Origin: Paramagnetospirillum magnetotacticum MS-1
GTDB lineage: Bacteria > Pseudomonadota > Alphaproteobacteria > Rhodospirillales > Magnetospirillaceae
Assembly: GCF_000829825.1 (NCBI RefSeq)
Contig: NZ_JXSL01000030.1
Coordinates: 813,501 to 877,500 of the forward strand
Reading direction: 5' to 3'
Length of the DNA: 64,000 nucleotides
Part shown: one piece after another, positions 21,021 to 58,275 of the stretch
Numbering within the stretch: position 1 is the stretch's first letter
Layout of the letters: every line of letters begins with the position of its first letter
Position numbers and translations under genes: made by a program
Notes under the pieces: model-generated
Seen by the model: only the letters and a program-made list of their open reading frames with translations
Told to the model about the DNA's origin: nothing
The model's database searches: none

Positions 21021-21656
21021 ATGAGCGAGCGAACCGGCGGCCTGCGCCGCATCCTAGGAGCCCCCTGGGTCTACAGACTCTATCAGGCCTTGGCCAACCG
21101 CCCGGACACCTGGAGCCGGATGGTCGATCGCTATGTGCGGCCATGGCCCGGAGCGGCGATCCTCGATATCGGCTGCGGGCCGGGCACCATCCTCGACGTC
21201 ATGCCCGAGGGCGTGTCCTATCTGGGTCTCGACCGCAATTCCAGCTACATCGAGGAGGCGCGGCGCCGCTACGGCTCGCGCGGGACCTTTCTGGAGCAGG
21301 ACGTCACCGACCTGCCCGCGGCCGAGCGGAGCTTCGATCTGGTGATGGCATTCGGCCTGCTTCACCATGTGGACGACGATGGCGCCCGTGCCGTAATGAC
21401 GGCGGTCAGCCAGCGGCTGCGACCGGGCGGGCGGCTGATCACGCTTGATCCGGTCTTCGTCGATGGCCAGTCGGCCATGGCCCGCTGGATCGCCGCCAAT
21501 GACCGGGGCCGGTTCGTGCGCAGCCCCGAGGGTTACCGCAGCCTGGCCGAGACCGCCCTGCCAGCGGTAACGGTGGAGATTCTTCACGACCTGCTGCGCA
21601 TTCCCTTCAGCAGCATCGTGATGATTTGCGGCACTGGCGATCAGGAGCGCCCATAA
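21021..21656 (+). CDS. class I SAM-dependent methyltransferase
   Basis: A 211-residue methyltransferase with motif I ILDIGCGPGTILDVMP at about 47-62, the acidic post-I residue in LGLDRN, a QDVTDLP motif II, FGLLHHVDD, and RPGGRLITLDP, all typical of the Methyltransf_11 type. It stands alone between two minus-strand blocks; its 3' end overlaps the end of the KdsB-like gene by 16 bases in convergent orientation. The acceptor is unknown: glycan or lipid O-methylation is a guess from context. Confidence 0.83.
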   Translation: MSERTGGLRRILGAPWVYRLYQALANRPDTWSRMVDRYVRPWPGAAILDIGCGPGTILDVMPEGVSYLGLDRNSSYIEEARRRYGSRGTFLEQDVTDLPAAERSFDLVMAFGLLHHVDDDGARAVMTAVSQRLRPGGRLITLDPVFVDGQSAMARWIAANDRGRFVRSPEGYRSLAETALPAVTVEILHDLLRIPFSSIVMICGTGDQERP

Positions 21657-22426
21657 GCCTTGGCGTTCCAGAGAGGATCGGTCGCCATGGTCTTGGTGAC
21701 CCGGGCCAGATCCTCGGCATTGTCCACGGTGTCCGAGACGATGGGGGTAACCAGCACTTTCATGGAACGGCCCATCTCGATGACCCGGTTATAGTCGATG
21801 CCCTCGACCTCTTCGTTATAGGTCATGCCGAAGGCCAGGAACTCCTTCAGGAAGGCGGGCTTGAAGGCGATGATGGCCGTATGCTTGTACACGCGCTCGG
21901 GCAGTACGCCGTGCTTCTTGGGGCTGGGGATGGGGGCGCGCGACATGTAGATCAGTCCGCCGTCGCTATCGCGGAACAGCACCTTGACGCGGTTGAGGTC
22001 GTGAAACTCTTCGATCAGGGTCAGGGGCTCCACCAGGGTCGAGGATTCCAGCCCCGGATCGGCGGCATGGGCGGCGATGATCTGATCCAGCATGTCGGGG
22101 TGGACCAGCGGCTGGTCGCCCTGGACGTTGATCACCAAGTCATAGGGACCATCGGTCTTGGCCACCTCTTCATAGGCCCAGGCGATGCGGTCGTTGCACA
22201 TGTCGAATTCAGGCGTAACAACCACCTCGCCACCCAAGGAGCGAATGTCGGCGGCCACCTCCTCATTGGGGGTGGCGACCACCACCTTGGTGAGCGTCTT
22301 GCACAGGCGGGTGCGCAGAGTGCAATGGCCCACCATGGACATGCCGTCGATGGTCTTCAGCGGCTTGCCGGGAAAGCGGCCGGAATTCATGCGGGCGGGA
22401 ACGATGGCGATGGTGCGGAGAGTCAT
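21641..22426 (-). CDS. KdsB-like cytidylyltransferase (CMP-keto-acid synthetase family)
   Basis: A 261-residue nucleotidyltransferase. IVPARMNSGRFPGKPL at about 8-23 is the CTP-binding loop of KdsB, INVQGDQPLV holds the metal-binding Asp, and the YKHTAIIAFKPAFL and NAEDLARV segments follow KdsB order. The usual KdsB substrate motif (His, Ser-Gly-Thr-Asp/Glu-Arg) is replaced by a FDMCNDR segment, so the activated sugar acid is probably not ordinary Kdo. It is the last gene of a 17-gene minus-strand run and lies 22 bases after a radical SAM gene. The start ATG at 22426 agrees with family length. Confidence 0.82.
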   Translation of the reverse strand: MTLRTIAIVPARMNSGRFPGKPLKTIDGMSMVGHCTLRTRLCKTLTKVVVATPNEEVAADIRSLGGEVVVTPEFDMCNDRIAWAYEEVAKTDGPYDLVINVQGDQPLVHPDMLDQIIAAHAADPGLESSTLVEPLTLIEEFHDLNRVKVLFRDSDGGLIYMSRAPIPSPKKHGVLPERVYKHTAIIAFKPAFLKEFLAFGMTYNEEVEGIDYNRVIEMGRSMKVLVTPIVSDTVDNAEDLARVTKTMATDPLWNAKAYGRS

Positions 22427-22448
22427 CTGCTGTCCTCGGCGTCCAAGG

Positions 22449-24452
22449 TCAAGAAAGGTGGGGAGGGGTGGCGGGCGGCGAAGCGGCCCGGGTCCGGTCG
22501 AGCAGAAGAGCATCGAGGCTGCCCGCCCCAACCGAACCATAAATTCCGTAGAGGCTTGATACGACGTCGCCGTCATAATTTTCGACGAAGGCATCGATGG
22601 CGGGATGACGCCGCGTCTCCTGGAGATCGGTATGGGAGCCCAAGGCCGCCGCGATGGCGGGATAGTCGATGATCTTGGCCTCGACCGCGGCCAGGGCGGC
22701 ATCGAAAACGGTGGCGGCGACACCCATCTCTTCAACCATGATCCGCCGCAACGCCCGACCCATGGCCGCTCGGTAAATCCCTCCACGCTCAAAGAACAGT
22801 GCGATGGCGTAATGGATATTGTAGCGCTTTTGCTGGTCGATGGATCCCGCCAGACTGTCGCCTTCGGGCCTGCCGTCCGTGCCCATGCGCCGCCCATCGG
22901 CGGAAGGCTGGGGACCAAAGACGAACTCCCCGGCGGTATCGTGCTCGAAAGCCTGCAGCAGGGGCCGCAAATCGGGATCGTCCATCTCGGCCAGGCGGTC
23001 GAACAGGGCCATGATGCCGCGATCCCCGCAGACCCGGTCATAGAGGACGGTGACATCGTCGAACAGACGATAGGTCAGGAAGACGCCGACCAGGAAATGC
23101 AGCTTCCGCACATAGGCCTGGTCTTCCATGGTGAAATCATCGGTTGCCACCACGATTTCCTGATACTCGCAGGCGGGGATGCCAGCGAAGATCCCCGACT
23201 GGCCCCACAACCGGCGCCAGCCGGTCTTGAGGCCGTATTTTTCCCGACTCTCCGTCGAGGCCAGCTCCGATCCAGGCAGCAATTCGGTGGGATAGAGGCG
23301 GATCTCGGTCCGCAGCGGGTCGGCCTGGCGGAAGATGCGGTCCAGACCCTGGATGAAACTCTGCCGGGTCTCGCCCGGCAGGGGATAGATGATCTCCACC
23401 ATCGACTCGACGTTGCCAGCCCCCAATTCGACTTGTATCCGGGCATATGTCTCATCGTCGAGATTGGCCCGCTTGGTGTTGGCCAGCACCGCCTCGGTCA
23501 TGGACTGGCGGGCTAAGGAGACCTTGGTCATATCGCGCAGCAGGCGGGCGACGTCGATCACCCGGTCACCGGAATTCTTGGCGAAGTAGAGATAGAGCTT
23601 GTCGGGCCATCCGGTGCGCTCGCGCATGTCGTGGACATGCCGGGCGATCTCCACGTCCCGGGGCAGCAAACCGAAATTGGCGTCGCCGAAGAACAGGCGG
23701 GACGAATTGGCGGACCGCTGGGCGATATAGTCGATCTCGGCGATGGCCCGGCCGACGGAGAAGCTGCTGACCTTGTTGAGCAGACGGCTGCCCCAGCAGC
23801 AGAAAGTGCAGGCATAGGGACAACCGCGAACCGTCTCCACCATGGGCCCCAGATTGGCGATCTTGAAATAGGGATCCATCAGGCCGGTCAGATAGGGAGA
23901 CGGCAATTCGTCCAGGTCCTTCGACCGGCGCAGCAGGGCGTCCACCGTCCGCCCGCCTTCCCGCACACCGGCGGGAGTACGGATGAACAATCCGGGAAAG
24001 GCGCCTTCGTACACGGCCTGACGACAGGTGCCAGGAGCCGATGCCAACATCAGCTCGATCAATTCGGCAAAGGCGAACTCGCCAGCTCCCGCGACATAGG
24101 CATCCATGCCTGCGGCCCGCGCGAAGAACTCGTCCAGCCAGGGCTGATCGTCGCGGGCGAAGCATGGCCCGCCCATAACGACCACGCTCTCGGGCGAGCA
24201 CTCTCGCGCATGCGCCGCAAGCTGAATGTTGATGTTGCGGTTCCAGGAATAATTGGCCAAACCGAGAAGGTCGGGGGGCGCCCGCCGGATGGTTTCGGCC
24301 AGTTCGGTCGGATCGATGAACATGGAGATCTCGACCCGGGCGCCGAAGCGCTGGCGAGCATAGGCAGCAAGATAGCCGATCCCCAGGGGAAAGCAGGTCC
24401 CGCCGGTAAAATAGCGCAGATCGCCCAGGTAGATTTTCAAGGCCGGGGTCAT
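22449..24452 (-). CDS. radical SAM enzyme of the B12-binding-like class, long form
   Basis: A 667-residue protein. Residues 1-150 form a Rossmann-like region with the VVMGGPCFA strand (about 91-99) but no visible cobalamin-ligating Asp-x-His-x2-Gly. The radical SAM motif Cys-x3-Cys-x2-Cys (GCPYACTFCCWG) lies at residues 211, 215 and 218; FGDANFG and EIIYPLPGET follow. About 250 C-terminal residues beyond the barrel have no motif I recognise. The start ATG overlaps the stop of the GT2-dehydrogenase fusion gene (ATGA), so the two are made together. Chemistry unknown; carbon methylation, thiomethylation or rearrangement of a sugar intermediate are family possibilities. Confidence 0.83.
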   Translation of the reverse strand: MTPALKIYLGDLRYFTGGTCFPLGIGYLAAYARQRFGARVEISMFIDPTELAETIRRAPPDLLGLANYSWNRNINIQLAAHARECSPESVVVMGGPCFARDDQPWLDEFFARAAGMDAYVAGAGEFAFAELIELMLASAPGTCRQAVYEGAFPGLFIRTPAGVREGGRTVDALLRRSKDLDELPSPYLTGLMDPYFKIANLGPMVETVRGCPYACTFCCWGSRLLNKVSSFSVGRAIAEIDYIAQRSANSSRLFFGDANFGLLPRDVEIARHVHDMRERTGWPDKLYLYFAKNSGDRVIDVARLLRDMTKVSLARQSMTEAVLANTKRANLDDETYARIQVELGAGNVESMVEIIYPLPGETRQSFIQGLDRIFRQADPLRTEIRLYPTELLPGSELASTESREKYGLKTGWRRLWGQSGIFAGIPACEYQEIVVATDDFTMEDQAYVRKLHFLVGVFLTYRLFDDVTVLYDRVCGDRGIMALFDRLAEMDDPDLRPLLQAFEHDTAGEFVFGPQPSADGRRMGTDGRPEGDSLAGSIDQQKRYNIHYAIALFFERGGIYRAAMGRALRRIMVEEMGVAATVFDAALAAVEAKIIDYPAIAAALGSHTDLQETRRHPAIDAFVENYDGDVVSSLYGIYGSVGAGSLDALLLDRTRAASPPATPPHLS

Positions 24453-26392
24453 GGGTGATCCCCGACATCAAGGATGATCTTGAGCCTAGAGCCGCCGCGC
24501 GCCAGCTCCCAGCCTTCCGCGAAGCGCTCCAGCGGCAGGTGGCAGGCCAAGAGCGGCGACAGGTCAAGCGACGGCATCAGGCGGATGGCTTCTTCGAAAT
24601 CCTCGGCGGTGGAGCCCACCGAGCCCACCACGGTCTTGTCATAGGCGGCGATGGCCTCGAAGGAGAATTCCTTGCGGGCATAGGGCAGCCCGAGCAGCAG
24701 CAAAGTAGCGCCCGCCGGGGCGGCATGCAGCGCCTTGTCCAGAACTTCCGGGTGGCCGGTGGCCTCGACCACCACATTGAACTCGCCCAGGCGGTCCAGG
24801 TCGGTGCTGGTCTCGATACTGTCGCGGCCTTTGAATACGTCCAGCCGGGACTGATTGCGGTCAAAAATGGTGACGGGGAAGCCGCGCCGCGCCAGTTCCA
24901 CAGCGCAGATATGGCCGATACAGCCCGCCCCCGTCACGGCGGCGCGCTTGGCCCCGCCGGGTGCGGCGGCCAGGGCGGGCATCAGACGGCGCATGCCCTT
25001 CAGCACCACGGCCAGGGGCTCGCACAGAGCGGCCTGGGCCATGTCGGTGCCCGCGGCCAGCTTGTGGACGAAGCGGGCGGGAACGGTGACGAAATCGGCA
25101 TAGGCGCCGTTTCGGCGGAACACCCCCAGCTCGGTGCGCTCGGCGCAGCCGATGAAATTGCCGGCCCGGCACTCGGCGCAGCTGCCGCAGCTTTGAATGC
25201 ACTCCACCACCACCGGATCGCCTTCCTTGAAGGCGGTGACGTTCTGGCCCATGGACACGACGTGGCCCGAGAATTCGTGGCCGGGCACGATGGGGTACTT
25301 GGCCATGCCGTTCTTGTAATAGCCCAGCGCCCCCGAAAGAATTTCCAGATCGGTGGCGCAGACGCCCACATGGGCCGTGGCGATGACCACGTCGCCGGGC
25401 TTGCACTCGGGCATTTCCATCTCTTCCAGCGCCACCTTGCCGGGGCCGTGGATCACCACGGCACGGGTGGAGCGGTCGAACAGGGCGTCCTCCTGCTCCT
25501 GGCGGGTCTCCAGAGGATGGGCCTCCAGCAGACCCTTGAAGGTGCCGATATTGCGGTTGACGCGGAAATAGACCACTTCGCGCAAGCGCTGGCCCAGTGT
25601 GAGCCGCGCCGCCACTGGATTGTCTTTGGGGTTGAAGGCATTGATCAGATCGCTGGCGGTGTTGCGTAACTCCGCCCATGTCTCGCCCAGCACCGTATTG
25701 GGCCCCTTGATCCCCATGCGCCGCGCCGCCACCGCTTCGCGGTAATAGCGCCGCCGGATCTGGCGCCAGCTTTCCTCATGCAGGTGATAAAGCCGGGCAT
25801 CAGGGCGGTAGACCACGCGAAAGCCCTTGTCCATCCAATGACGCGCCCAGCCGATATCCTCCAGGCCCGTCAATTCCTCGTCGAAGCCATACTGTTCCCA
25901 CAGATCCTTGCGGATGGCCGAATTGGCGTTGTTGACGCACCAGCGTGCCGGGCTTTCCTCGCGGCCATGGGGGCCAAAGGTCCGATCGAAATCCTCGGCC
26001 TCGGAGAACTTGGAGCAGGCCTTGCCCAATTGGCGGCCATAGCTCATGGCCACCGTGTCGTCCCTGAGCGGCTCGACCAGATTGGCGAGCCAATGCTCGT
26101 CGCAGGGTTCCGTATGGGCCGAGGCGATGGCGATGAACCGGCCCCTTGCTTCACGGATACCCGCGTTAAGGGAATAGCCGAAGGTGAAGTCGTGGCTGGA
26201 GATGCGCAGCACCTGATCGGCACGGGCCTCGGCGATCTCGCGCGTGCGGTCGAAAGAACCGGAATCGACGATGATCACCTCGAAATCGCGGTAGCTCTGG
26301 CGGTCCAGCGCGTCGAACAGGCCGGGCAGGTATTTCTGCTCGTTGAAACAGCGGATGATGACCGAGGTTTCGACGCTCGAAGGCTCAGCCAC
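24449..26392 (-). CDS. fusion of GT2 glycosyltransferase and zinc-dependent alcohol dehydrogenase
   Basis: A 647-residue two-domain protein read in one frame without interruption. Residues 1 to about 300 are a GT2 domain: SVIIRCFNEQKYL, VDSGSFDRT, a SAHTEP acidic motif in place of the usual Asp-x-Asp, and GLEDIGWARHW. Residues 308-647 are a medium-chain dehydrogenase with catalytic zinc ligands Cys345 and His372-Glu373 (PGHEF), structural-zinc cysteines 402, 405, 408 and 416, and a Rossmann VTGAGCIGHICAV motif. Either half is full length for its family. It overlaps the preceding hydroxyacid dehydrogenase gene by eight bases and the next by four. It may oxidise or reduce a sugar and transfer it, but coupling of the two activities is inference. 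Confidence 0.85.
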   Translation of the reverse strand: MAEPSSVETSVIIRCFNEQKYLPGLFDALDRQSYRDFEVIIVDSGSFDRTREIAEARADQVLRISSHDFTFGYSLNAGIREARGRFIAIASAHTEPCDEHWLANLVEPLRDDTVAMSYGRQLGKACSKFSEAEDFDRTFGPHGREESPARWCVNNANSAIRKDLWEQYGFDEELTGLEDIGWARHWMDKGFRVVYRPDARLYHLHEESWRQIRRRYYREAVAARRMGIKGPNTVLGETWAELRNTASDLINAFNPKDNPVAARLTLGQRLREVVYFRVNRNIGTFKGLLEAHPLETRQEQEDALFDRSTRAVVIHGPGKVALEEMEMPECKPGDVVIATAHVGVCATDLEILSGALGYYKNGMAKYPIVPGHEFSGHVVSMGQNVTAFKEGDPVVVECIQSCGSCAECRAGNFIGCAERTELGVFRRNGAYADFVTVPARFVHKLAAGTDMAQAALCEPLAVVLKGMRRLMPALAAAPGGAKRAAVTGAGCIGHICAVELARRGFPVTIFDRNQSRLDVFKGRDSIETSTDLDRLGEFNVVVEATGHPEVLDKALHAAPAGATLLLLGLPYARKEFSFEAIAAYDKTVVGSVGSTAEDFEEAIRLMPSLDLSPLLACHLPLERFAEGWELARGGSRLKIILDVGDHP

Positions 26393-27320
26393 GCAGACCG
26401 TCCAACAGATTCTTCAAGGTGGAATGGTGGATGCGCTCCCAGGCCTTGGGGCTGGAATTGCTGTTGTGGGGCGCCAGCATGACGTTGTCCATACCCAGCA
26501 GAGCGCTGGTCTTGGGCAGCGGCTCGTGCTCGAAGACGTCGAGTGCGCAGCCAACGATCTTGCCCGATTGCAGGGCGCGCACCAGGGCCTCTTCCTGCAC
26601 CACCGGGCCGCGCGCCGTGTTGACCAGCACCGAACCCGCCTTCATGCGCTTGAAGCGCTCGTCGTTGAACAGCAGATAGGAGGTGGGGTTGAGATCACAG
26701 CATACCGAGACAAAGTCCGACTGCTCCAGCAGCGAGTCCAGGTCCATCATCTCCACACCCACTTCGGCGACGAAGGCCGGGTCGATGGTGCGGATGTCGT
26801 TGCCCAGCAGCCGCGCCCCGAAGGGCTTGGCCCGGCGCAGCACGGCCGAGCCCATGCAGCCCACGCCCACCACGCCGATGGTGGATTCGTTCAAGGCGCG
26901 ACCGGGGATCTTGTCCCAGATACCGGCCTTCATCATCTTGTCCATCCACGGCAGATTGCGGGCGAAGGACAAAATGTAGCCCAGTGCCGTGTCGGCCACC
27001 GGCTGGGTGAAGGCGTCGAGCGTGCGCCCCGTGGGGATGCCCTTGGTGGCGGCATAGGCGGAATCGATGGAATCGATGCCGGTGCCCCATTTGGAGATGA
27101 CCTTGAGATTGGCGGCCGCATCGATCACCGTCTTGGTGATGCGGTCGTCGCCGCAGACGATGCCATGGTACTTGGCGATGATCGGCAGCAGGTCGGCCTC
27201 TTCCAGGCGCTCCTGCACATCGGCCACGGTGATCTCGATGTCGTGCTCGGCGAACCAGGGGCGGAAGCGGTCGATCACCGGGATCATGTAGGGGGCGCTA
27301 ATCAGGACTTGCCAGGTCAT
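26385..27320 (-). CDS. D-isomer-specific 2-hydroxyacid dehydrogenase (SerA-like)
   Basis: A 311-residue NAD-dependent dehydrogenase. It carries the VVGVGCMGSAVLRRA dinucleotide motif at mid-protein, NTARGPVVQEEALV with the substrate-binding Arg, and a CALDVFEHEPL Glu; the late His lies in MLAPHNSNSS. It would interconvert a 2-keto and a 2-hydroxy acid. It is shorter than full SerA and has no regulatory domain. Being embedded in a sugar-acid operon, upstream of a KdsB-like enzyme, suggests a 2-keto or 2-hydroxy acid sugar precursor rather than serine synthesis. Confidence 0.85.
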   Translation of the reverse strand: MTWQVLISAPYMIPVIDRFRPWFAEHDIEITVADVQERLEEADLLPIIAKYHGIVCGDDRITKTVIDAAANLKVISKWGTGIDSIDSAYAATKGIPTGRTLDAFTQPVADTALGYILSFARNLPWMDKMMKAGIWDKIPGRALNESTIGVVGVGCMGSAVLRRAKPFGARLLGNDIRTIDPAFVAEVGVEMMDLDSLLEQSDFVSVCCDLNPTSYLLFNDERFKRMKAGSVLVNTARGPVVQEEALVRALQSGKIVGCALDVFEHEPLPKTSALLGMDNVMLAPHNSNSSPKAWERIHHSTLKNLLDGLRG

Positions 27321-27375: not shown

Positions 27376-28020
27376 TCAAGAATTGCGCGTCAGCACCACC
27401 CGGCACGGCGAGCCGTCGGCGCCGATCAGCTTCAACGGCAGGCAGACCAGTTCGTATTCACCGGGATCGATGCCACGCATGTCCAGACCCTCGACCGCCA
27501 CGATTCCGGCCCCCAGCAAAACGCGATGAGTGGTCGGTTCGGCATCGGCGAATCGTTGCACCGACAGATAGTCGATTCCAACCAACTTGATCCCACGCTC
27601 CACCAACCATTGCGCCCCCGCCGGAGTAAATGCGATGAAATCGGTGAAGAAGGGATGGTTGGGCTGATTCCACAGGGCGGAATTGCGCGTGGCAAGCAGC
27701 AAACGCTCGCAACCGGGCGGAACGGCCAGCGCCTCAAGCTCCGCCGGGCCGATCTCGGCGACATGGTCGGGCACATGGACGACCGAGCAAGGCCCCATCA
27801 GAACATCAAGGGCAAGGGAGGCAACATCGGCGCCGTCTCGAATAAAATGAATCGGCGCGTCCAGATGGGTGCCGTAATGCACGGCGAAATTCAGACGCGT
27901 GACGTTGCAGGCGTCCCCATTATCCATGTCGGAAAGGCGGGTAAGGATGGGAAGAGGCTCGCCGGGCCAGGCGGGCACACCGGCGCCGAAAGGAAGGGTC
28001 AGGTCGAAGCGCCTGATCAT
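27376..28020 (-). CDS. cyclase-family metal-dependent hydrolase
   Basis: A 214-residue protein of the cyclase/kynurenine-formamidase-like family. The signature HYGTHLDAPIHF lies at about residues 48-59, carrying the His and Asp metal ligands, and a late EGLDMRGIDPGEY segment matches the family. Members hydrolyse amides, isatin or lactones. The ATG overlaps the galE stop (ATGA). Nothing around it belongs to tryptophan breakdown, so a deformylase, deamidase or lactonase role on a sugar intermediate is the most likely reading, though unproven. Confidence 0.85.
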   Translation of the reverse strand: MIRRFDLTLPFGAGVPAWPGEPLPILTRLSDMDNGDACNVTRLNFAVHYGTHLDAPIHFIRDGADVASLALDVLMGPCSVVHVPDHVAEIGPAELEALAVPPGCERLLLATRNSALWNQPNHPFFTDFIAFTPAGAQWLVERGIKLVGIDYLSVQRFADAEPTTHRVLLGAGIVAVEGLDMRGIDPGEYELVCLPLKLIGADGSPCRVVLTRNS

Positions 28021-29006
28021 GGCTGCTGCTTAGCTTCCCATTCCAGCGCCGAACGAACCATCAGTTCCAGATCGTCGCGCCGTGCCACCCAACCGAGTTT
28101 TGCCTTCAGCAGGCCGGAATCCGCCACCAATGCCGGAGGGTCGCCACGCCGGCGCTCGGAACTGTGAACGGGGAAGTCGCGCCCCGACACGCGGCGGACG
28201 ACGTCGATGACCTCGCGCACGGAAAAGCCGTGACCGTAGCCGCAATTGGCGATCAGCGACTCTCCCCCCCGTTCCAGATGGGCAAGCGCCAGAACATGGG
28301 CTTCCGCCAGATCGGTGACGTGGATGTAGTCGCGGATACAGGTCCCGTCGGCGGTCGGATAATCGTCGCCATAGATGGCCATGCCCTCTCGGCGGCCCAA
28401 TGCCGCCTCGACGGCGATCTTGATCAGGTGAGTCGCCACGGGAGAGACCTGGCCGCTACGCCCCCGATGATCCGCCCCAGCCACATTGAAGTAACGCAGC
28501 GCCGCAAACCGCGTGGGCGCCGTTTCACAGATGTCGGACAGCGCCCACTCCACCGCCAGCTTGGAACGCCCATAGGGGCTGATGGGGCGCAGGGCCGCGC
28601 TTTCCGAGATGGGCAGCGTGTCTGGCGTGCCGTATACGGCAGCGGTCGAGGAATAGACGAAATGTCGGATTCCGGCTTCGACACATGTTTCCACAAAGGC
28701 AAGTCCGCTTCCGGCATTGTTGCGCCAGTAGGGCAGGGGCTCGCGGAAGGATTCGGAAACGATGATGGAACCGGCGAACATCATCACGCCGCTACAGCCA
28801 TGTTCGGCCAGAAGACGGCGGACCAGGGCGCGGTCACCCATATCGCCCCGCACGAAGACGGCACCCTCCGGCACCAGGGCTTGCCTGCCCGTGGACAGAT
28901 CGTCGAGAATCACCACGGGACGGCCAGCATCGGCCAGCGCCAGGGCCACATGACTGCCGATATAGCCCGCCCCGCCGGCGATGAGAACCGGACGGGGATC
29001 AGCCAT
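28017..29006 (-). CDS. galE: UDP-glucose 4-epimerase
   Basis: A 329-residue enzyme that interconverts UDP-glucose and UDP-galactose (or the GlcNAc pair) with bound NAD. It shows AGGAGYIGSHV at about 10-20, DDLSTGR, MMFAGSIIVSES (as in short alphaproteobacterial GalE forms), SSTAAVYG, and the PYGRSK Tyr-x3-Lys pair, then LRYFNVAGAD and GTCIRDYIHVTDLA, which is diagnostic of GalE. The ATG at 29006 overlaps the preceding gene by eight bases. UDP-galactose supply for the UGM-like enzyme on the plus strand would be one use. Confidence 0.9.
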   Translation of the reverse strand: MADPRPVLIAGGAGYIGSHVALALADAGRPVVILDDLSTGRQALVPEGAVFVRGDMGDRALVRRLLAEHGCSGVMMFAGSIIVSESFREPLPYWRNNAGSGLAFVETCVEAGIRHFVYSSTAAVYGTPDTLPISESAALRPISPYGRSKLAVEWALSDICETAPTRFAALRYFNVAGADHRGRSGQVSPVATHLIKIAVEAALGRREGMAIYGDDYPTADGTCIRDYIHVTDLAEAHVLALAHLERGGESLIANCGYGHGFSVREVIDVVRRVSGRDFPVHSSERRRGDPPALVADSGLLKAKLGWVARRDDLELMVRSALEWEAKQQP

Positions 29007-30060
29007 CGGTGCCTCGGAAAACATGATCATAATCGCCATTGGCCTTGGCGAAATCGTCCAGCCGCCCAATGTCGAGCCAGTATTCACGGATGGGGAAGGC
29101 GACGACCGGCCGCTCTTGCGCCATCATCTTGGTGAGCAGGCCCGGCATGTCGCAAGGCTGGCCGGTCTCCAGATGGCCGAGCACCACCGGATCGAGGACA
29201 TAGATGCCCGCATTGATGAAATGGGTCAAAACGGGCTTTTCCTTCAAGCCGCGCACCCGCGAATTCTCCACTTCGACCACCCCATAGGGCACCTCGATAT
29301 CGTATTCGCGCACGCACATGGTCGCGGCGGCGGCTTGCTCGGCGTGGAAATCGAGCAAAGCCCTGTAGTTGACGGAGGTCAGGACATCGCCGTTCATCAC
29401 GACGACCGGACCTGACGGCATCTCGGGCAGCAGACCCAGCGCGCCCGCGGTGCCCAACTTGCCGTCTTCACGCAGATAGCGGATGTCGAGGCCCAAACGC
29501 GAGCCGTCCCCGAAGGCTTCCTCGAACTTCTCGGCCATGTAGTTGACCGCCAGGAACACGCGGCGAAATCCGCTTGCGGCCAGTTGCAGCAGAATGGTCT
29601 CCAGTAGGGGACGCCCGCCCACCGGCAGCAAAGGTTTGGGTGTCGTCGCGGTCAGCGGCCGCAACCGCTCACCCAGCCCTCCGACCATCAGAATCACCCA
29701 GTTGGGCAGTTCCTCCCCGGCCAGCAGTTCACTCTCGGTCTCCAGGCCGACAAGCACGCCGCCCGCATCCACCACCGGAAGGTGACGAAGACGCCTGCTG
29801 CGGATCAGTGCCAGCCTCTCCTGCGGCGAGGAAGAGGGCAGAGCGGTCAGCGGCTTGGGGTTCATGATCGCCGTGGCCGGCTCGTCCAGCACCAGGCCGC
29901 GCAGAATGCCGCGCCTGATATCGCCGTCGGTGATGGTTCCAAGCAACCTGCGGTCGGAATCCACCACCAGGACGATCTGGGCGGCGAAGCGGTCGAGAAT
30001 CTTGATGACGTCCAGGATCGGCACCGTTGGGCCAACCAGGATCTGGTCCCAGTTCTTCAT
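28999..30060 (-). CDS. ptmE: CBS-pair nucleotidyltransferase, PtmE-like
   Basis: A 353-residue protein. Residues 1-115 hold two CBS domains (GTITDGDIRRG and a second, HLPVVDAGGVLVG). Residues 120-350 are a sugar-nucleotide transferase with MVGGLGERLRPLTATTPKPL and the VMNGDVLT metal-site Asp. This is the layout of PtmE, the glucosamine-1-phosphate guanylyltransferase that opens the GDP-linked legionaminic acid route in Campylobacter. LegB and LegC are two and three genes upstream, which strengthens the assignment. An HddC-like GDP-heptose role is the alternative. The CBS pair suggests control by an adenylate or similar ligand. Confidence 0.83.
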   Translation of the reverse strand: MKNWDQILVGPTVPILDVIKILDRFAAQIVLVVDSDRRLLGTITDGDIRRGILRGLVLDEPATAIMNPKPLTALPSSSPQERLALIRSRRLRHLPVVDAGGVLVGLETESELLAGEELPNWVILMVGGLGERLRPLTATTPKPLLPVGGRPLLETILLQLAASGFRRVFLAVNYMAEKFEEAFGDGSRLGLDIRYLREDGKLGTAGALGLLPEMPSGPVVVMNGDVLTSVNYRALLDFHAEQAAAATMCVREYDIEVPYGVVEVENSRVRGLKEKPVLTHFINAGIYVLDPVVLGHLETGQPCDMPGLLTKMMAQERPVVAFPIREYWLDIGRLDDFAKANGDYDHVFRGTDG

Positions 30061-30092: not shown

Positions 30093-31943
30093 TCAATCCT
30101 CGGCCTCCGCTGAGGCGCCGGTCCGCCGCCAGAATGTTTCCGAGGCGGCACCGGGCCATCCACCGCCACAAAAGTGATCGAGAATTGCCTCCCTGTCAGG
30201 AGCCCGCCCCGCCGCCAGATCCGCCCCCAACGCCTCGGCGTCACTATAGACGCAAAGCGGACCGATGCAGTCCATGACCAGGGAATGGGGCCGCGGCGCC
30301 AGGGCGAAATAAGGACGGCCAAATGCCAGTGTCTCCACCAGGGCTCCCGAGTCGACGGGACCTATGACCAGATCCGCCCAGGACAGATGATCCGGAACCA
30401 GCCCGGCCTCGACGATCTCCAGACCAAGTCCGAATTCGGCATTCAGGCGGTGATAATAGTTGGGAGAATAGCCCGGATGCAGCTTCAGCCGAATCCGGCC
30501 ATAGCCCAGACCGGCCAGCATCCTGGCCACCGCCACGATGGCAGGATAGGCCTGGCTCTTGATGGCACGCAAATTCCCGCCGGCAGGTACGATGGGCAAG
30601 AGCAGGACGTTGCCCGAGCCGACGGGCGGCAGACCGTAGGGTCTATGGTCGCCCCGGACGGAAATGGGATCCAGTCCGGGATAGCCGACCCTGACACAGG
30701 GAAGTGGCGACCCAATGGCCCGTAGCCATAGCTCCTGCTGCCGACCCCAGGTCAACATTCGATCAACGCCCGGCCGCTGACCCTCCACGGCACAACGGGT
30801 GTCGGAGACGTAGTCGTGAACAAACATGCCGTTCAGCAGCTCGTCCACCTCCGCCCCCTCCCGGCGAGCCGCCAGAGACAACAGCCGCGCGGTGGGATTG
30901 GTGGCGTCGCCGACCACAACCTTGACGATACGGTTGCGACGGAGCAAGAGGCATAACGCCGCGAATTCGGCCAAGGCCGCATGCAGCCGCCCGCGACCCA
31001 GAACCGAGTTCTCCACATAATGGCGTCGCACCGCATCAGTGACGTCGGCGGGCGGCACGGCTCTCCATCGGCTGCGCAATTCCGTGATGGCCGCATCCAC
31101 GCGGGCGATTTCGAGCGCAGTCGATCGGGCGGCGCGAAGGCCGCCCAGGCGAACACCCCGGCGCAGACACTTCAGCACGAAGGCCGGCGTCTTTGGCGAC
31201 CGCCCAACGATCAGCACGGGAGTATCGCCAGGCCGATTATGGGCGATCAGGCCCTGCTCCATCATGGGATTGAGAAACAGCAAGACCCGATGAACCGTCC
31301 GGGCCGTGGCCAGGCAAGTAATGCCCTCGGCGATGGCGCAGGCCAGCCGGATTATCAGCGACCTGAACCTGGGCGGGGTCTTGGGAGCACGGCCATAGCC
31401 CAGTTCATCGGGAAAATAAGGGTCATCGCGGCTCGGAGAATCCAGTTGGTTCTCGAACACCGCACCGTGACGCCGCGCCGCATCGCGCACCACGATCTGC
31501 TTGCTCTCGTCATCAAGCAAGCCGTACTCGGTGCGCGCATCGAGCAAGACGATGCGCTCCACCGGGTAGCGGCGGCACAGACTTTCAAGGGCATGGCTCA
31601 GCCGATCCACGCCGAACAGCAGGATTTCCAGTTCACGATTGAAAGTCGCGGCAATCTCGGCCAGATCGGGGGGCAGATCCCTACACCAGTTGCCGTAGCG
31701 GACATAGACGTCGGCGGGCGGGCGGAAATCATCTAGCAGGAACTGATCGATGAACACAGCCGGACAATCGGCTCGGGCAAGGTCCTGCCACACCATCCAG
31801 TCGGTGGAGACGACAAGCGCACCCTCGACCCGCCGGGCGGCGGCAATATGGCGGGGATGCGACAGCAGAACCAGGGTCTTGAACCCACCCGCTGGCAAAG
31901 GCGCATCCAGTGGCAGGGGCGAAAAAGCAGACCGACCGGTCAT
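30093..31943 (-). CDS. putative glycosyltransferase of unknown family (616 residues)
   Basis: I do not recognise a named family. The first 180 residues look like a Rossmann region (TLVLLSHPRHIAAARRV, ERIVLLDART). The last 200 residues resemble the donor half of GT-B or capsule glycerophosphotransferase-type proteins: NVLLLPIVPAGG, RIRLKLHPGYSPNYY, and SWADLVIGPVDSGALVETLAFGRP, where an acidic residue follows a Gly-Pro loop. No membrane segment is evident. The start overlaps the legC stop (ATGA) and ptmE follows after 32 bases, so it sits inside the legionaminate genes. It could transfer the nonulosonate to protein (as flagellin Maf proteins do) or to lipid. Confidence 0.65.
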   Translation of the reverse strand: MTGRSAFSPLPLDAPLPAGGFKTLVLLSHPRHIAAARRVEGALVVSTDWMVWQDLARADCPAVFIDQFLLDDFRPPADVYVRYGNWCRDLPPDLAEIAATFNRELEILLFGVDRLSHALESLCRRYPVERIVLLDARTEYGLLDDESKQIVVRDAARRHGAVFENQLDSPSRDDPYFPDELGYGRAPKTPPRFRSLIIRLACAIAEGITCLATARTVHRVLLFLNPMMEQGLIAHNRPGDTPVLIVGRSPKTPAFVLKCLRRGVRLGGLRAARSTALEIARVDAAITELRSRWRAVPPADVTDAVRRHYVENSVLGRGRLHAALAEFAALCLLLRRNRIVKVVVGDATNPTARLLSLAARREGAEVDELLNGMFVHDYVSDTRCAVEGQRPGVDRMLTWGRQQELWLRAIGSPLPCVRVGYPGLDPISVRGDHRPYGLPPVGSGNVLLLPIVPAGGNLRAIKSQAYPAIVAVARMLAGLGYGRIRLKLHPGYSPNYYHRLNAEFGLGLEIVEAGLVPDHLSWADLVIGPVDSGALVETLAFGRPYFALAPRPHSLVMDCIGPLCVYSDAEALGADLAAGRAPDREAILDHFCGGGWPGAASETFWRRTGASAEAED

Positions 31944-33100
31944 AATCCCGCCCCGGCGGATATGACGGCGTCAAGAACCGGGCTTGGGCTGGATGGAATA
32001 TTGATCAGCCGGTCTTCCAGTGCCTCGGTCACCGCCAGATCGTCGCGCGGACAGTACCGATACATGGGCAGGCGGTGCATGGGCGTCCAGATGGGCCGAC
32101 ACTGAAGACCCCGAGCGGCGGCTCCCTCGATCACTTGCGCCACAAGATCGCGGTCTGGCCGATCGAGGATCAAGGCATTCAGCCAGAAATTCCCGGCGCA
32201 TCCGGCGCGGTCCGCCACCACCTTCACGCCGGGCAAATCGGCAAAGGCCTCCTGGTAGAGGCTGGCCAGCCTACGCTTGCGGCCGAGATAGGCGGGCAGG
32301 GCTTCCAATTGCGCGCAGCCCAGGGCCGCGTTCAGGTTGGGAAGACGATAGTTCCAGCCCACCTCGTCATGGTCGAAGCGATAGGGGTGGGAAAGCTTGG
32401 CCGTGGTGGTCAGATGCTTGGCCCGACGCGCCAGGTCGGGATCGTTGGTCAAGACGGCTCCGCCGCCGCCGGTGGTGACGATCTTATTGCCGTTGAAACT
32501 AAGCGCCGACAGCAGACCGCTCGTTCCCGTGTGGCGACCGCCGCTATAACTGCCCAGGGATTCTGCGGCATCCTCGATCAGGGGAACCCCATGCCGGGCG
32601 CAAACCTGCATCAGACCATCCAGGTCGGCGGCATGGCCGAATGTGTGCATGACCACCACCGCCTTGATCGGCCGGTCCCCATGGCGCGCGAGATGATCGT
32701 CAAGCCGGGCCGGGTCGAGACCCAGGGTCGCCTCATCCACATCCACGAACCGGCAGGAGGCGCCGAGATGGCTGACCGCATTGGCTGTGGCGATGAAGGT
32801 GAGGGACGGTAAGACGACGTCATCACCCGCCCCAACGCCAGCCAGATGCAGGCAGACCTCCAGCGCGGCGCTCCCGTTGACCGTGGCGACCGCATGGTGC
32901 GCCCCGGTGATGTCGGCCAGCATGGCCTCGAAGCGATCGACATAGGCCCCCACCGACGACACCCAGCCAGTGTCGAGGCAGTCCTTGACGTACTCCCATT
33001 CGTGGCCCTCGAAGACCGGAGCATGCAAGGGCACCGGGCCGTCAACCCGTAGGGTCCGGCGCCATACGGCTTCAAGGCGGCAGATGATCTCGTTATGCAT
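31940..33100 (-). CDS. legC: LegC-type PLP aminotransferase
   Basis: A 386-residue DegT/DnrJ/EryC1/StrS aminotransferase. The N-terminal stretch with VPLHAPVFEGHEWEYVKD and DTGWVSSVGAYV is the LegC signature. The PLP site has VNGSAALEV, EDAAESLGSYSGG, and the lysine in SFNGNKIVTTGGGG. In legionaminic acid synthesis LegC aminates the 4-keto-6-deoxy GlcNAc nucleotide made by LegB, using glutamate. The ATG at 33100 lies five bases after the legB stop at 33106. Confidence 0.9.
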   Translation of the reverse strand: MHNEIICRLEAVWRRTLRVDGPVPLHAPVFEGHEWEYVKDCLDTGWVSSVGAYVDRFEAMLADITGAHHAVATVNGSAALEVCLHLAGVGAGDDVVLPSLTFIATANAVSHLGASCRFVDVDEATLGLDPARLDDHLARHGDRPIKAVVVMHTFGHAADLDGLMQVCARHGVPLIEDAAESLGSYSGGRHTGTSGLLSALSFNGNKIVTTGGGGAVLTNDPDLARRAKHLTTTAKLSHPYRFDHDEVGWNYRLPNLNAALGCAQLEALPAYLGRKRRLASLYQEAFADLPGVKVVADRAGCAGNFWLNALILDRPDRDLVAQVIEGAAARGLQCRPIWTPMHRLPMYRYCPRDDLAVTEALEDRLINIPSSPSPVLDAVISAGAGL

Positions 33101-33105
33101 GGCGC

Positions 33106-34152
33106 TCAGATATTGTAACGGTCGGCTTTGTAGAAACCGAGATTGGCCGGATCGCGGAACCACTCCACCGTTTCGGCCAGGGCACGATCAAAACCGTCGC
33201 CACCGCCGTATCGCGGTGACCAGCCCAGCAGCCGGGCCGCCTTGGCATTGTCACCCCACAACCGTTCGACCTCGCTCTTTTCCGGGCGCAGGCGCGCCTC
33301 CTCGCATTCGATCTCCACGTCGCAGCCAACCGCCCGTGCGATGGCCCGCGCCGTATCGCCGATGGAAATTTCGAAATTCGACGCCGCATTGATGGTCTCG
33401 CCCTCGATGCCCTCGGCCTCCATGGCGGCAATGAAGGCCCGCACGGTATCGGCGACGTAATTGAAGTCGCGGGTGGGATGGACGGCGCCCAGCTTGATCT
33501 TTCTCCGTCCGGCCAGAAGCTGGGTGATGATGGTGGGAATCACCGCCCGCGCCGATTGCCGGGGGCCGAATGTGTTGAACGGCCGCAAGATGGTGACCGG
33601 AGTTGCGAAAGAACGCCAGAACGCCTCGGCCATCTGGTCCGCACCGATCTTGCTCGCCGAATAGGGAGACTGCCCGACCAGCGGGTGGTCTTCCGTGATG
33701 GGCACGAAGCGGGCCGTCCCGTAAACCTCGCTGGTGGAGGTGTGAACCAGCCGCCCCACGCCGAGGTCACGCACCGCCTGCAATACGTTGAGAGTCCCGG
33801 TCACATTGGTGTCCACATAGGTGGCGGGCGAGTGATACGAGAACGGAATGGCGATCAGCGCCGCCAGATGCAACACGGCGTCACATCCCTTGACTGCCTC
33901 GCGCACGCCGAACGGGTCGCGGATATCACCTGAAAAGACGTCGAGCGAACGCTTGATCTCCGGCTCGGAGTGATCAAGCCAGCCCCAGGAATTGAAGGAG
34001 TTGTAGCACACCATGGCCCGGACATCGTGACCCCGGCGAACCAGCGCCTCGGTCAGATGAGAACCGATGAAGCCGTCGGCGCCGGTCACGAGGATCTTTT
34101 TGGGGCTCATGGGCGTCTTCACCGATCCGGGTCCAGGGGCGGCCATACTCAT
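33106..34152 (-). CDS. legB: LegB-type nucleotide-sugar 4,6-dehydratase
   Basis: A 348-residue extended SDR. It has KKILVTGADGFIGSHLTEAL and then VCYNSFNSWGWLD, which marks LegB. HTSTSEVYG supplies the catalytic Thr with Glu in the next positions, and SPYSASKIGADQ the Tyr-x3-Lys; the RPFNTFGPRQSARAVIPTII tail is typical. It converts the GlcNAc nucleotide to its 4-keto-6-deoxy form. The ATG at 34152 has a GGAGAG ribosome-binding site; an internal ATG at 34110 lacks one. LegC follows immediately. Confidence 0.9.
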   Translation of the reverse strand: MSMAAPGPGSVKTPMSPKKILVTGADGFIGSHLTEALVRRGHDVRAMVCYNSFNSWGWLDHSEPEIKRSLDVFSGDIRDPFGVREAVKGCDAVLHLAALIAIPFSYHSPATYVDTNVTGTLNVLQAVRDLGVGRLVHTSTSEVYGTARFVPITEDHPLVGQSPYSASKIGADQMAEAFWRSFATPVTILRPFNTFGPRQSARAVIPTIITQLLAGRRKIKLGAVHPTRDFNYVADTVRAFIAAMEAEGIEGETINAASNFEISIGDTARAIARAVGCDVEIECEEARLRPEKSEVERLWGDNAKAARLLGWSPRYGGGDGFDRALAETVEWFRDPANLGFYKADRYNI

Positions 34153-56121: not shown

Positions 56122-58275
56122 ATGAAGCAGATCATCCAAAGCGCCAAATCCGGCAAGCTGTCGCTGAAACAGGTCCCCGAGCCCCGCGTGCGCACCGGCC
56201 ACCTTCTGGTCGCCACCCGCGCCTCGCTGATCAGCGCCGGGACCGAGCGCATGGTCATCGATTTCGCCAAGAAGAGTCTGGCCGCCAAGGCCAAGGCGCG
56301 GCCCGATCTGGTGCGCAAGGTGGTGGACAAGGCGCGGCGCGACGGCATCCTGGCTACCTTCAAGGCGGTGATGGCGCGCCTCGACGAGCCGCTGCCCCTG
56401 GGTTATTCCGCTGCCGGAACGGTGAGCGCCGTGGGCGGTGGCCTGGAAGGCACCTTCACCATGGGCCAGCGGGTCGCCATGGCCGGAGCCGGTCTGGCCA
56501 ATCATGCCGAGCTCAATGTGGTGCCGCGCAATCTGGCCGCGCCCATCCCCGACGATGTCCCCGACGAGGAAGCGGCCTTCGGCACGGTGGGCGCCATCGC
56601 CCTGGCCGGTGTGCGGTCCTTGGGCGCGCAGTTGGGCGATCTGGTCGCCGTGCTGGGCGTCGGGCTGGTGGGCCAGATGGCGGTGCAGTTGCTGGCCTTG
56701 CAAGGGGCCCGGGTCATCGCCCTGGACGTCAATCCCGACCGCCTGGCCCTGGCCAAATCCATGGGCGCCGAACTCACCTGGACCTTGGGCGAGCCCGGCC
56801 TTACCGAGGCGGTTGCCGCCCTGTCGGGCGGCGTGGGCTGCGATTCCGTGCTGATCGCGGCGGCCACCGATTCCTCCGAGCCACTGGCCCTGGCCGCCGA
56901 ACTGGCCCGCGACCGCGCCCGCGTGGTGCTGGTTGGCAAGACCGGCACCGAATTCGACTACGCTGCCTATATGAAGAAGGAGCTGACCCTTTCGGTGTCG
57001 CGCTCCTATGGCCCTGGCCGCTATGACGAGGAATTCGAAGGACGCGGCGTCAAATACCCGGTGGGCTGGGTGCGTTGGACCGAGACCGAAAACTTGCGCG
57101 AAGTGGTCCGCCTGATGAGCCCGTCCCTGCCCCGTCGCCTGGATGTGGGCGCCCTGATCAGCCACCGCTTCGATTTCGATCAGGCCGAGGAGGCCTATGC
57201 TCTGGTCACCGGCGGCCAGCAACCCTCCCTGGGCGTGGTGCTGCATTATGCCGAGCGGGTTTGCACCGCCCCCGCTTTCGCCGCTCCTGCCGCCGCCGCC
57301 ACGGGCAAATGCGTGCTGGGCGTTATCGGCGCCGGTAATTTCGCCCGCACCGTTCTGCTGCCCGAACTGGCCCGGCTGCCCGGCGTGGAGATGCGCACCA
57401 TCTGCACCCAGCGCGGCCAGACCGCTGAGCACGGGCAGCAGACCTTCGGCTTCGCCAATGCCACCACCGACGTGGACGCCGTGCTGAACGACACGTCCAT
57501 CAACGCGGTGCTGGTGGCCACCCGCCACGGCAACCATGCCGAGATGGTGGCGCGGTGCCTTTCCGCTGGCAAATCGGTGCTGGTGGAAAAGCCCCTGGCG
57601 CTGGACCGCGCCCAATTGAATCAGGTGATCACGGCGCGGCAAGCCTCCAACGGCTTCTTCACCGTCGGCTTCAACCGCCGCTTCGCCCCCATGGCCCAAA
57701 AGGCCGCCGCCCATCTGGCCCGCCATCTTGGCCCCAAAGTGGCGGTGCTGCGCGTCAATGCCGGGGCCCTGCCCGCCGAAAGCTGGGTCAATGCCGCCGA
57801 AGAGGGCGGCGGGCGCATCCTGGGCGAGGTCTGCCACTTCGTGGATCTGGCCCGTGCCCTGATCGGCGCGCCCATCAAGACGGTGCAGGCCGATGCCGCC
57901 CGCGTCACCCACGGGGTCTGCGACGATCTCTCCGTATCGCTGACCTTCGCAGATGGATCTCTGGCCACCATCATCTACACCGCCCAGGGCGACACCTCCC
58001 TGTCCAAGGAACGCTTCGAGTGTTTCGCTGGCGGAACTATCGTCACCATCGATAATTTTCTGTCGCTGTCCACCACCAAGGGCGGCGCCACAAAGGTGGA
58101 AAAGAGCCTGGGGCAGGACAAGGGCCACCGGGCCGAACTGGCCGCCTTCGTGGGCGCCGTGGCTTCGGGCGGCGCCGCCCCCGTTGACGAGGCCGAACTG
58201 ATCGAGACCTCCCTGGCCACCATCGCCGTGCTGGATTCGCTGGCCGAGGGCCGGCGGATCAGCCTGGAGGACTAG
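56122..58275 (+). CDS. bidomain oxidoreductase: medium-chain dehydrogenase plus Gfo/Idh/MocA
   Basis: A 717-residue fusion. Residues 1-385 are a medium-chain dehydrogenase (LISAGTERMVIDFAK, PLGYSAAGTV, AVLGVGLVGQMAVQLLA) without the canonical catalytic zinc Cys/His set. Residues from about 395 to 717 are a Gfo/Idh/MocA protein with GVIGAGNFARTVLLPEL, GKSVLVEKPLAL and GEVCHFVDLARAL. This bidomain family is known from polysaccharide clusters and some heparin-like pathways, but its reaction is unclear. It precedes the initiating glycosyltransferase by three bases. Confidence 0.88.
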   Translation: MKQIIQSAKSGKLSLKQVPEPRVRTGHLLVATRASLISAGTERMVIDFAKKSLAAKAKARPDLVRKVVDKARRDGILATFKAVMARLDEPLPLGYSAAGTVSAVGGGLEGTFTMGQRVAMAGAGLANHAELNVVPRNLAAPIPDDVPDEEAAFGTVGAIALAGVRSLGAQLGDLVAVLGVGLVGQMAVQLLALQGARVIALDVNPDRLALAKSMGAELTWTLGEPGLTEAVAALSGGVGCDSVLIAAATDSSEPLALAAELARDRARVVLVGKTGTEFDYAAYMKKELTLSVSRSYGPGRYDEEFEGRGVKYPVGWVRWTETENLREVVRLMSPSLPRRLDVGALISHRFDFDQAEEAYALVTGGQQPSLGVVLHYAERVCTAPAFAAPAAAATGKCVLGVIGAGNFARTVLLPELARLPGVEMRTICTQRGQTAEHGQQTFGFANATTDVDAVLNDTSINAVLVATRHGNHAEMVARCLSAGKSVLVEKPLALDRAQLNQVITARQASNGFFTVGFNRRFAPMAQKAAAHLARHLGPKVAVLRVNAGALPAESWVNAAEEGGGRILGEVCHFVDLARALIGAPIKTVQADAARVTHGVCDDLSVSLTFADGSLATIIYTAQGDTSLSKERFECFAGGTIVTIDNFLSLSTTKGGATKVEKSLGQDKGHRAELAAFVGAVASGGAAPVDEAELIETSLATIAVLDSLAEGRRISLED

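Follow-up and report, generated by a model that had tools for sequence, protein, structure and literature searches.

Family 2 glycosyltransferases (GT2; PF00535) combine a GT-A fold with N-terminal nucleotide-binding motifs and an 'ED' motif, and their solved relatives include chondroitin synthase. The zinc-dependent medium-chain dehydrogenases/reductases (MDR) of the polyol, threonine, idonate and glucose group share catalytic and structural zinc ligands and a Rossmann fold. Here we describe a gene of Paramagnetospirillum magnetotacticum MS-1 that joins a member of each family in one open frame, located in a 64,000-nucleotide stretch of contig NZ_JXSL01000030.1 (positions 813,501 to 877,500; hereafter the window). 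The encoded protein has these features of both families, but it differs from described GT2 enzymes in carrying S-[AG]-H at the site of the DxD motif, in its synteny with a cytidine monophosphate (CMP)-sugar synthetase gene and in the dehydrogenase fused to it, and from the zinc MDR group in being appended to a GT2 and in scoring below every curated subfamily (equivalog) cut-off seen (151.3 bits against 450 for the best model).

Two kinds of pathway resemble the surroundings of the gene. As in the routes to CMP-3-deoxy-D-manno-octulosonic acid (CMP-Kdo) and CMP-nonulosonates (legionaminate, pseudaminate), a 2-keto sugar acid would be activated by a KdsB/NeuA-type enzyme and then transferred, but the module here has no phosphoenolpyruvate (PEP)-condensing synthase of its own and contains 2-hydroxyacid and sugar dehydrogenases instead. 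With oxidative sugar-acid metabolism (aldose 1-dehydrogenase, gluconolactonase, GhrB/TkrA 2-ketoaldonate reductase) it shares the short-chain dehydrogenase/reductase (SDR) and MDR, the SMP-30 and metallo-beta-lactamase-fold (MBL) lactonase, and the 2-hydroxyacid dehydrogenase families, whereas here these occur in surface-glycan clusters together with activation by cytidine triphosphate (CTP) and a glycosyltransferase, so their role is presumably biosynthetic. Ulosonic acids beyond Kdo and the nonulosonates do occur in bacterial capsules, an example being the 4-deoxy-2-hexulosonic acid of the E. coli K3 antigen, as cited in PMC10433991. In the open-access full-text literature we found no description of a GT2-dehydrogenase fusion, in agreement with a preliminary description of this DNA that knew of no characterized enzyme with such a layout, and no match for the gene combination or for such CMP-activated ulosonates. 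The protein is a new domain combination, and the gene module around it seems not to have been described before.

An Intact Fusion of Probable Single Origin

Translation of the minus strand across the gene (Table 1) gives a single open frame of 647 amino acids (aa) plus a stop codon, and the plus strand is interrupted by a stop; the preliminary description, which left the strand unstated, was correct that the frame is unbroken. In Pfam searches the N-terminal half matched Glycos_transf_2 (residues 10–121, E 1.9e-21, 77.1 bits against a gathering cut-off of 23.3), and the C-terminal half matched ADH_N (residues 331–445, E 2.7e-27), Glu_dehyd_C (454–629) and ADH_zinc_N (504–606), all three above their gathering cut-offs. 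The gene is a real in-frame fusion of a GT2 of intact fold with a complete medium-chain zinc dehydrogenase.

Our searches sampled about 1,700 genomes overall, with only the best candidates per genome scored. Sixty relatives yielded nine further full-length fused proteins at 59–85% identity, some of them from other families of the order, and the GT2 subfamily was present in 17 of 297 genomes of the order, as 14 full-length fusions, one copy truncated where its contig stops, and GT2-only proteins in two species of one genus. The same domain order, for which the preliminary description had advised a search, is found in 14 of these 297 genomes. Among the close relatives, Magnetospirillum sp. SS-4 and Paramagnetospirillum marisnigri can be named. 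The truncated copy, that of genome G943, is not accepted as unfused, its contig ending within the gene. The fused proteins of the 14 genomes, on which all statements below about invariance and the junction are based, are 641–650 aa long and align over residues 280–335 without an insertion or deletion, so independent homologues exclude an overlooked stop or frameshift at residues 295–310, raised earlier as the case against a fusion. No fused copy appeared outside the order: among the best candidates from draws on the class (385 genomes) and the phylum (399 genomes) no other GT2-dehydrogenase fusion was recognized, and no plasmid record covered at least 80% of the fusion protein. Nor did stand-alone close relatives of the dehydrogenase half appear in 372 genomes of the class at E ≤ 1e-50 (best five candidates per genome).

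Pairwise dN/dS among the five closest sequences was 0.18–0.28 for the GT2 half and 0.13–0.27 for the dehydrogenase half, and by this measure both halves are under purifying selection. Recurrence of the same fusion in 14 genomes goes far beyond what chance would give. Nothing speaks for reading the gene as a pseudogene or as an artefact of sequencing or assembly; with 14 genomes represented, ratios well below 1 in both halves and all catalytic residues retained, this idea is already refuted and has next to no probability.

In a maximum-likelihood tree of GT2 halves, all fused proteins fell in one clade (support 98/99) whose sister group consists of unfused GT2s. Both GT2-only proteins are nested among the fused ones, in a 15-row clade supported at 96/98, which most likely reflects a single fusion event followed by one loss of the dehydrogenase. 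The tails of these two proteins (genomes G057 and G817) resembled the N-terminus of the dehydrogenase and were considered as its remnants, a reading that we reject, since 7–68% of shuffled sequences scored equally, depending on the homologue; the evidence for the loss is thus the tree. Two loci of the sister set encode a UlaG-like MBL-fold hydrolase fused in frame to the GT2 N-terminus (Table 1), an independent fusion event.

Glycosyltransferase Half Without DxD

The preliminary description held both halves to be intact, which is borne out for the dehydrogenase and for the GT2 fold, though not for the canonical DxD of the GT2. At that site, aligned with the DCD of chondroitin synthase, lies S91-A92-H93; S.H is likewise invariant in the aligned unfused relatives, giving a subfamily motif S-[AG]-H-x-x-P, and the canonical DxD is absent from fused copies and aligned unfused relatives alike. 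The DxD of GT2 enzymes binds the metal and the diphosphate of donors linked to uridine, guanosine or deoxythymidine diphosphate (UDP, GDP or dTDP). CMP donors carry no diphosphate, which makes loss of the motif plausible, and S-x-H in its place is compatible with a monophosphate (CMP) donor. Taken together, synteny and the motif at this site suggest that the GT2 uses a CMP-sugar, and point to the subfamily as candidate CMP-sugar-dependent transferases that lack the metal motif.

Dehydrogenase Half

The zinc-binding residues named in the preliminary description (Cys345, His372, Glu373 and Cys402/405/408/416) were correctly identified, and Glu458 is equally conserved. By family resemblance this residue is probably a fourth ligand of the catalytic zinc, as in enzymes of the sorbitol/threonine dehydrogenase type. 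Asp511 and the Rossmann motif suggest nicotinamide adenine dinucleotide (NAD(H)) as the cofactor. The best matches of this half were to threonine 3-dehydrogenase, scyllo-inosose 3-dehydrogenase, galactitol-1-phosphate 5-dehydrogenase and HpsP. Structure prediction, also advised earlier, succeeded in part: the GT2 half was modeled with confidence, and most of the dehydrogenase N-terminal catalytic domain had a predicted local distance difference test score (pLDDT) below 50, for which reason we do not interpret a domain interface.

A Conserved Triad and a Proposed Pathway

The GT2 occurs together with a cytidylyltransferase of PF02348 and a SerA-like 2-hydroxyacid dehydrogenase in 14 of the 15 fused-clade loci that have sufficiently long flanks, and likewise in 15 of the 16 unfused ones, spanning several families, plasmids and phylum-level relatives. 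In each of the two exceptions (L035, fused; L077, unfused) no 2-hydroxyacid dehydrogenase was seen. Across 14 sequences taken from both kinds of locus, the latter enzyme keeps its Arg/Glu/His triad; active-site residues of the GT2 (ED motif) and the zinc dehydrogenase are intact as well. Half of the 16 unfused loci also encode an SDR, and all eight of these have an SMP-30/gluconolactonase or UlaG-like MBL hydrolase as well; the remaining eight have neither. Two of the eight SDR-bearing loci are those in which the MBL hydrolase is joined to the GT2. For the SDRs that were scanned, the top-scoring models were those of glucose 1-dehydrogenase or D-xylose 1-dehydrogenase. Co-occurrence of SDR and hydrolase is complete in the 16 loci (Fisher p ∼1.6e-4), but only two to three contrasts are phylogenetically independent and we do not claim the pairing as statistically established. 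The fused loci lack this pair and have the zinc dehydrogenase instead; seven of them, the window included, contain a PF04199 cyclase. The absent DxD, the triad and the separate genes of the relatives had all gone unnoticed in the preliminary description.

Our preferred reading, to which we give somewhat less than an even chance, is that the fusion works in a conserved module that makes and attaches an acidic CMP-activated sugar by way of a 2-keto sugar acid. The zinc dehydrogenase half would oxidize a sugar at C1, or at another hydroxyl, to a lactone; a separate hydrolase (possibly the PF04199 cyclase in the window, and in relatives an SMP-30/gluconolactonase or UlaG-like MBL enzyme) would open it to an aldonate; the SerA-like enzyme would turn C2 into a ketone and thereby yield the 2-keto sugar acid (ulosonate), which the KdsB/NeuA-like enzyme would join to CMP; and the DxD-less GT2 half would transfer it to a growing surface glycan. 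In the unfused relatives, an SDR would take the place of the fused zinc dehydrogenase in sugar oxidation. The enzyme families of such a route, the cyclase excepted, have members that carry out the proposed or closely related chemistry, and we know of no sugar lactonase activity in the PF04199 family. Having its first and last enzymes in one polypeptide might couple the sugar's supply with its use or assemble a multi-enzyme complex. The wider claim, that this constitutes a previously undescribed route to nucleotide-activated 2-keto sugar acids, in which a sugar is oxidized, its lactone opened and the product oxidized at C2 and activated with CTP, without PEP condensation, to feed a CMP-using, DxD-less GT2, with first and last enzymes fused in one order, is possible but doubtful.

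Several points weigh against the proposed pathway. We infer its chemistry, including the order of the steps, the substrate, the CMP donor of the GT2 and the role of the cyclase, entirely from synteny and sequence. Oxidation at C1 is a guess, because the dehydrogenase half matches no characterized subfamily above cut-off, and by sequence polyol or ketose oxidation would be equally possible. Several fused loci (L036, L039, L107) have no cyclase, and the eight unfused loci with neither SDR nor hydrolase indicate that those steps are not universal. One genus retains the GT2 without the dehydrogenase, which is therefore dispensable in some backgrounds, and the actual user of the CMP-sugar could be a GT-B-fold protein encoded alongside many of the fused loci.

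This last protein, of ∼580 aa and without a Pfam match, directly follows the fusion gene in several loci (L038 6589-8331 and homologues). For its family, a GT-B-like fold is modeled with confidence (pLDDT 92), structural matches including the Kdo transferase WaaA, TagF and a polysialyltransferase, and in the closest species one KdsB-like type adjoins the gene. The GT2 could then take a common UDP-, GDP- or dTDP-linked sugar and leave the cassette's CMP-sugar to the GT-B-fold protein, the fusion being no more than co-expression made permanent. We consider this quite unlikely, as unfused loci pair the GT2 and cytidylyltransferase without the ∼580-aa protein, the homologue in the MS-1 genome (C30:786533-788212) lies ∼25 kb outside the window, and the GT2 has no DxD.

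The preliminary description proposed that the fusion makes and uses an unusual oxidized or reduced sugar without releasing it. An unusual sugar of this kind is compatible with the neighborhood; its retention is unsupported, because a CMP-sugar synthetase is conserved beside the GT2 and would place CTP activation, on another protein, between the dehydrogenase step and transfer. If the donor is a CMP-sugar, this step and very probably C2 oxidation fall to proteins encoded by other genes; the two halves of the fusion would then not act consecutively, and direct channeling is not supported. A related alternative has the dehydrogenase half oxidize or reduce a nucleotide sugar or a newly attached residue, with the GT2 using the product directly (channeling or post-transfer oxidation). 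The linker-free physical fusion, with its junction constant in 14 homologues, speaks for it. However, a separate cytidylyltransferase and 2-hydroxyacid dehydrogenase are kept with the GT2 whether it is fused or not, so the donor is probably made elsewhere, and we know of no zinc medium-chain dehydrogenase that acts on nucleotide sugars, leaving this alternative distinctly improbable.

A further alternative concerns a ready-made octulosonic or nonulosonic acid of Kdo or legionaminate type, which the dehydrogenase half and the 2-hydroxyacid dehydrogenase would, as an oxidation-reduction pair, oxidize or alter in stereochemistry before the KdsB-like enzyme activates the variant for the GT2 or another transferase. 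LegB and LegC genes adjoin the cassette in the window, a homologue of NeuB lies just upstream, and one of CMP-legionaminate synthetase is at the window start. Two fused loci (L106 2385-4711 and L107 1453-4807) are flanked by aminotransferase, iron-containing alcohol dehydrogenase-like and NeuB-like genes, identified by eye, which to us recall KdnA/KdnB of 8-amino-Kdo. In Acinetobacter, ElaA is a putative extra oxidoreductase of 8-epilegionaminate synthesis (PMC9676051). In the stretches read, however, the triads of the unfused relatives come without legionaminate genes, and the relatives' aldose-dehydrogenase-like SDR and gluconolactonase better fit oxidation of a sugar to an aldonate; we regard such editing as unlikely, though deserving of some weight.

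If the proposed pathway holds, CMP-activated ulosonates formed by sugar oxidation would be an additional class of surface sugars. Current glycan annotation would miss them because each gene carries a label from ordinary metabolism ('phosphoglycerate dehydrogenase', 'alcohol dehydrogenase', 'gluconolactonase', 'arylformamidase'). That the redox gene and the transferase are fused is itself evidence that they serve one pathway.

Neighboring Genes

Table 1. Positions of the fusion gene, its motifs and associated genes (window coordinates unless a locus is named).
Feature	Position	Strand	Remarks
GT2::zinc-dehydrogenase fusion gene	24449..26392	(-)	647 aa; GTG start; stop codon 24449-24451; 13 full-length fused homologues besides
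GT2 half	25472..26392	(-)	residues 1-307; PF00535 at 10-121; structure model confident to ~290
Medium-chain zinc dehydrogenase half	24449..25471	(-)	residues 308-647 and stop
Junction FDRSTRAV	25457..25480	(-)	residues 305-312; no linker; no indel in 14 fused proteins
S91-A92-H93 at the GT-A DxD position	26114..26122	(-)	invariant, 14 fused copies
E178-D179, GT2 'ED' motif with presumed catalytic base	25856..25861	(-)	invariant; role assigned from family
Cys345, catalytic zinc ligand	25358..25360	(-)	invariant, 14 fused proteins
His372-Glu373, catalytic zinc ligands	25274..25279	(-)	invariant, 14 fused proteins
Structural zinc lobe Cys402/405/408/416	25145..25189	(-)	invariant, 14 fused proteins
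Glu458, probable fourth catalytic-zinc ligand	25019..25021	(-)	invariant, 14 fused proteins
Rossmann GxGxxG (488-493) and Asp511	24860..24931	(-)	G488, G490, G493, D511 invariant
KdsB-like CMP-sugar synthetase	21641..22429	(-)	start inferred; stretch searched 21641-22393
SerA-like 2-hydroxyacid dehydrogenase	26385..27320	(-)	PF02826, 184 bits; Arg/Glu/His triad intact
PF04199 cyclase / arylformamidase-like metal hydrolase	27376..28020	(-)	candidate lactonase or amidase
GalE-type UDP-glucose 4-epimerase	28017..29009	(-)	TIGR01179, 401.7 bits (cut-off 262.3)
CBS-domain sugar-1-phosphate nucleotidyltransferase (PtmE-like)	28999..30060	(-)	
LegC aminotransferase and LegB dehydratase	31940..34152	(-)	both above curated cut-offs; legionaminate pathway context
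UlaG-like MBL hydrolase::GT2 fusions	L079 9025-10692; L120 9180-10847		followed by cytidylyltransferase, 2-hydroxyacid dehydrogenase, SDR

The fusion gene overlaps the 2-hydroxyacid dehydrogenase gene by 8 nt at its 5' end and a radical-SAM gene by 4 nt at its 3' end, and is thus part of an operon-like row on the minus strand. The KdsB-like enzyme scored 114.9 bits against TIGR00466, below the cut-off of 155.2, and the canonical kdsB of the same genome, ∼300 kb away, scored 196.4 bits, above it; on these scores the window cytidylyltransferase is a paralogue of the genome's canonical KdsB. The best NCBIfam model for the PF04199 cyclase was arylformamidase, again below cut-off (144.5 against 223). 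GalE recurs in fused and unfused loci.

The overlapping radical-SAM gene (22449-24452, minus strand) encodes a B12-dependent, KedN5-like protein that scores below cut-off; it lies between the fusion and KdsB-like genes and was not found at the corresponding place in other fused loci. Between the CBS-domain nucleotidyltransferase and LegC, positions 30093-31943 of the minus strand encode a 616-aa protein without a Pfam or NCBIfam match that is 31% identical to a protein of locus L036. It was considered as a member of the ∼580-aa family of the fused loci and does not belong to it.

A second dehydrogenase fusion occurs within the same surface-polysaccharide cluster: a 717-aa protein (56122-58275, plus strand) joins an ADH_zinc_N Rossmann domain to a GFO/IDH/MocA oxidoreductase, a type of fusion that we believe to be already known. 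Some 52–57 kb before the window, on C30, locus L130 (6836-11349) contains a second KdsB-like gene together with genes for a HAD phosphatase and two Gfo/Idh dehydrogenases and a SerA-like dehydrogenase match, which may form a further unusual CMP-sugar route of the same genome.

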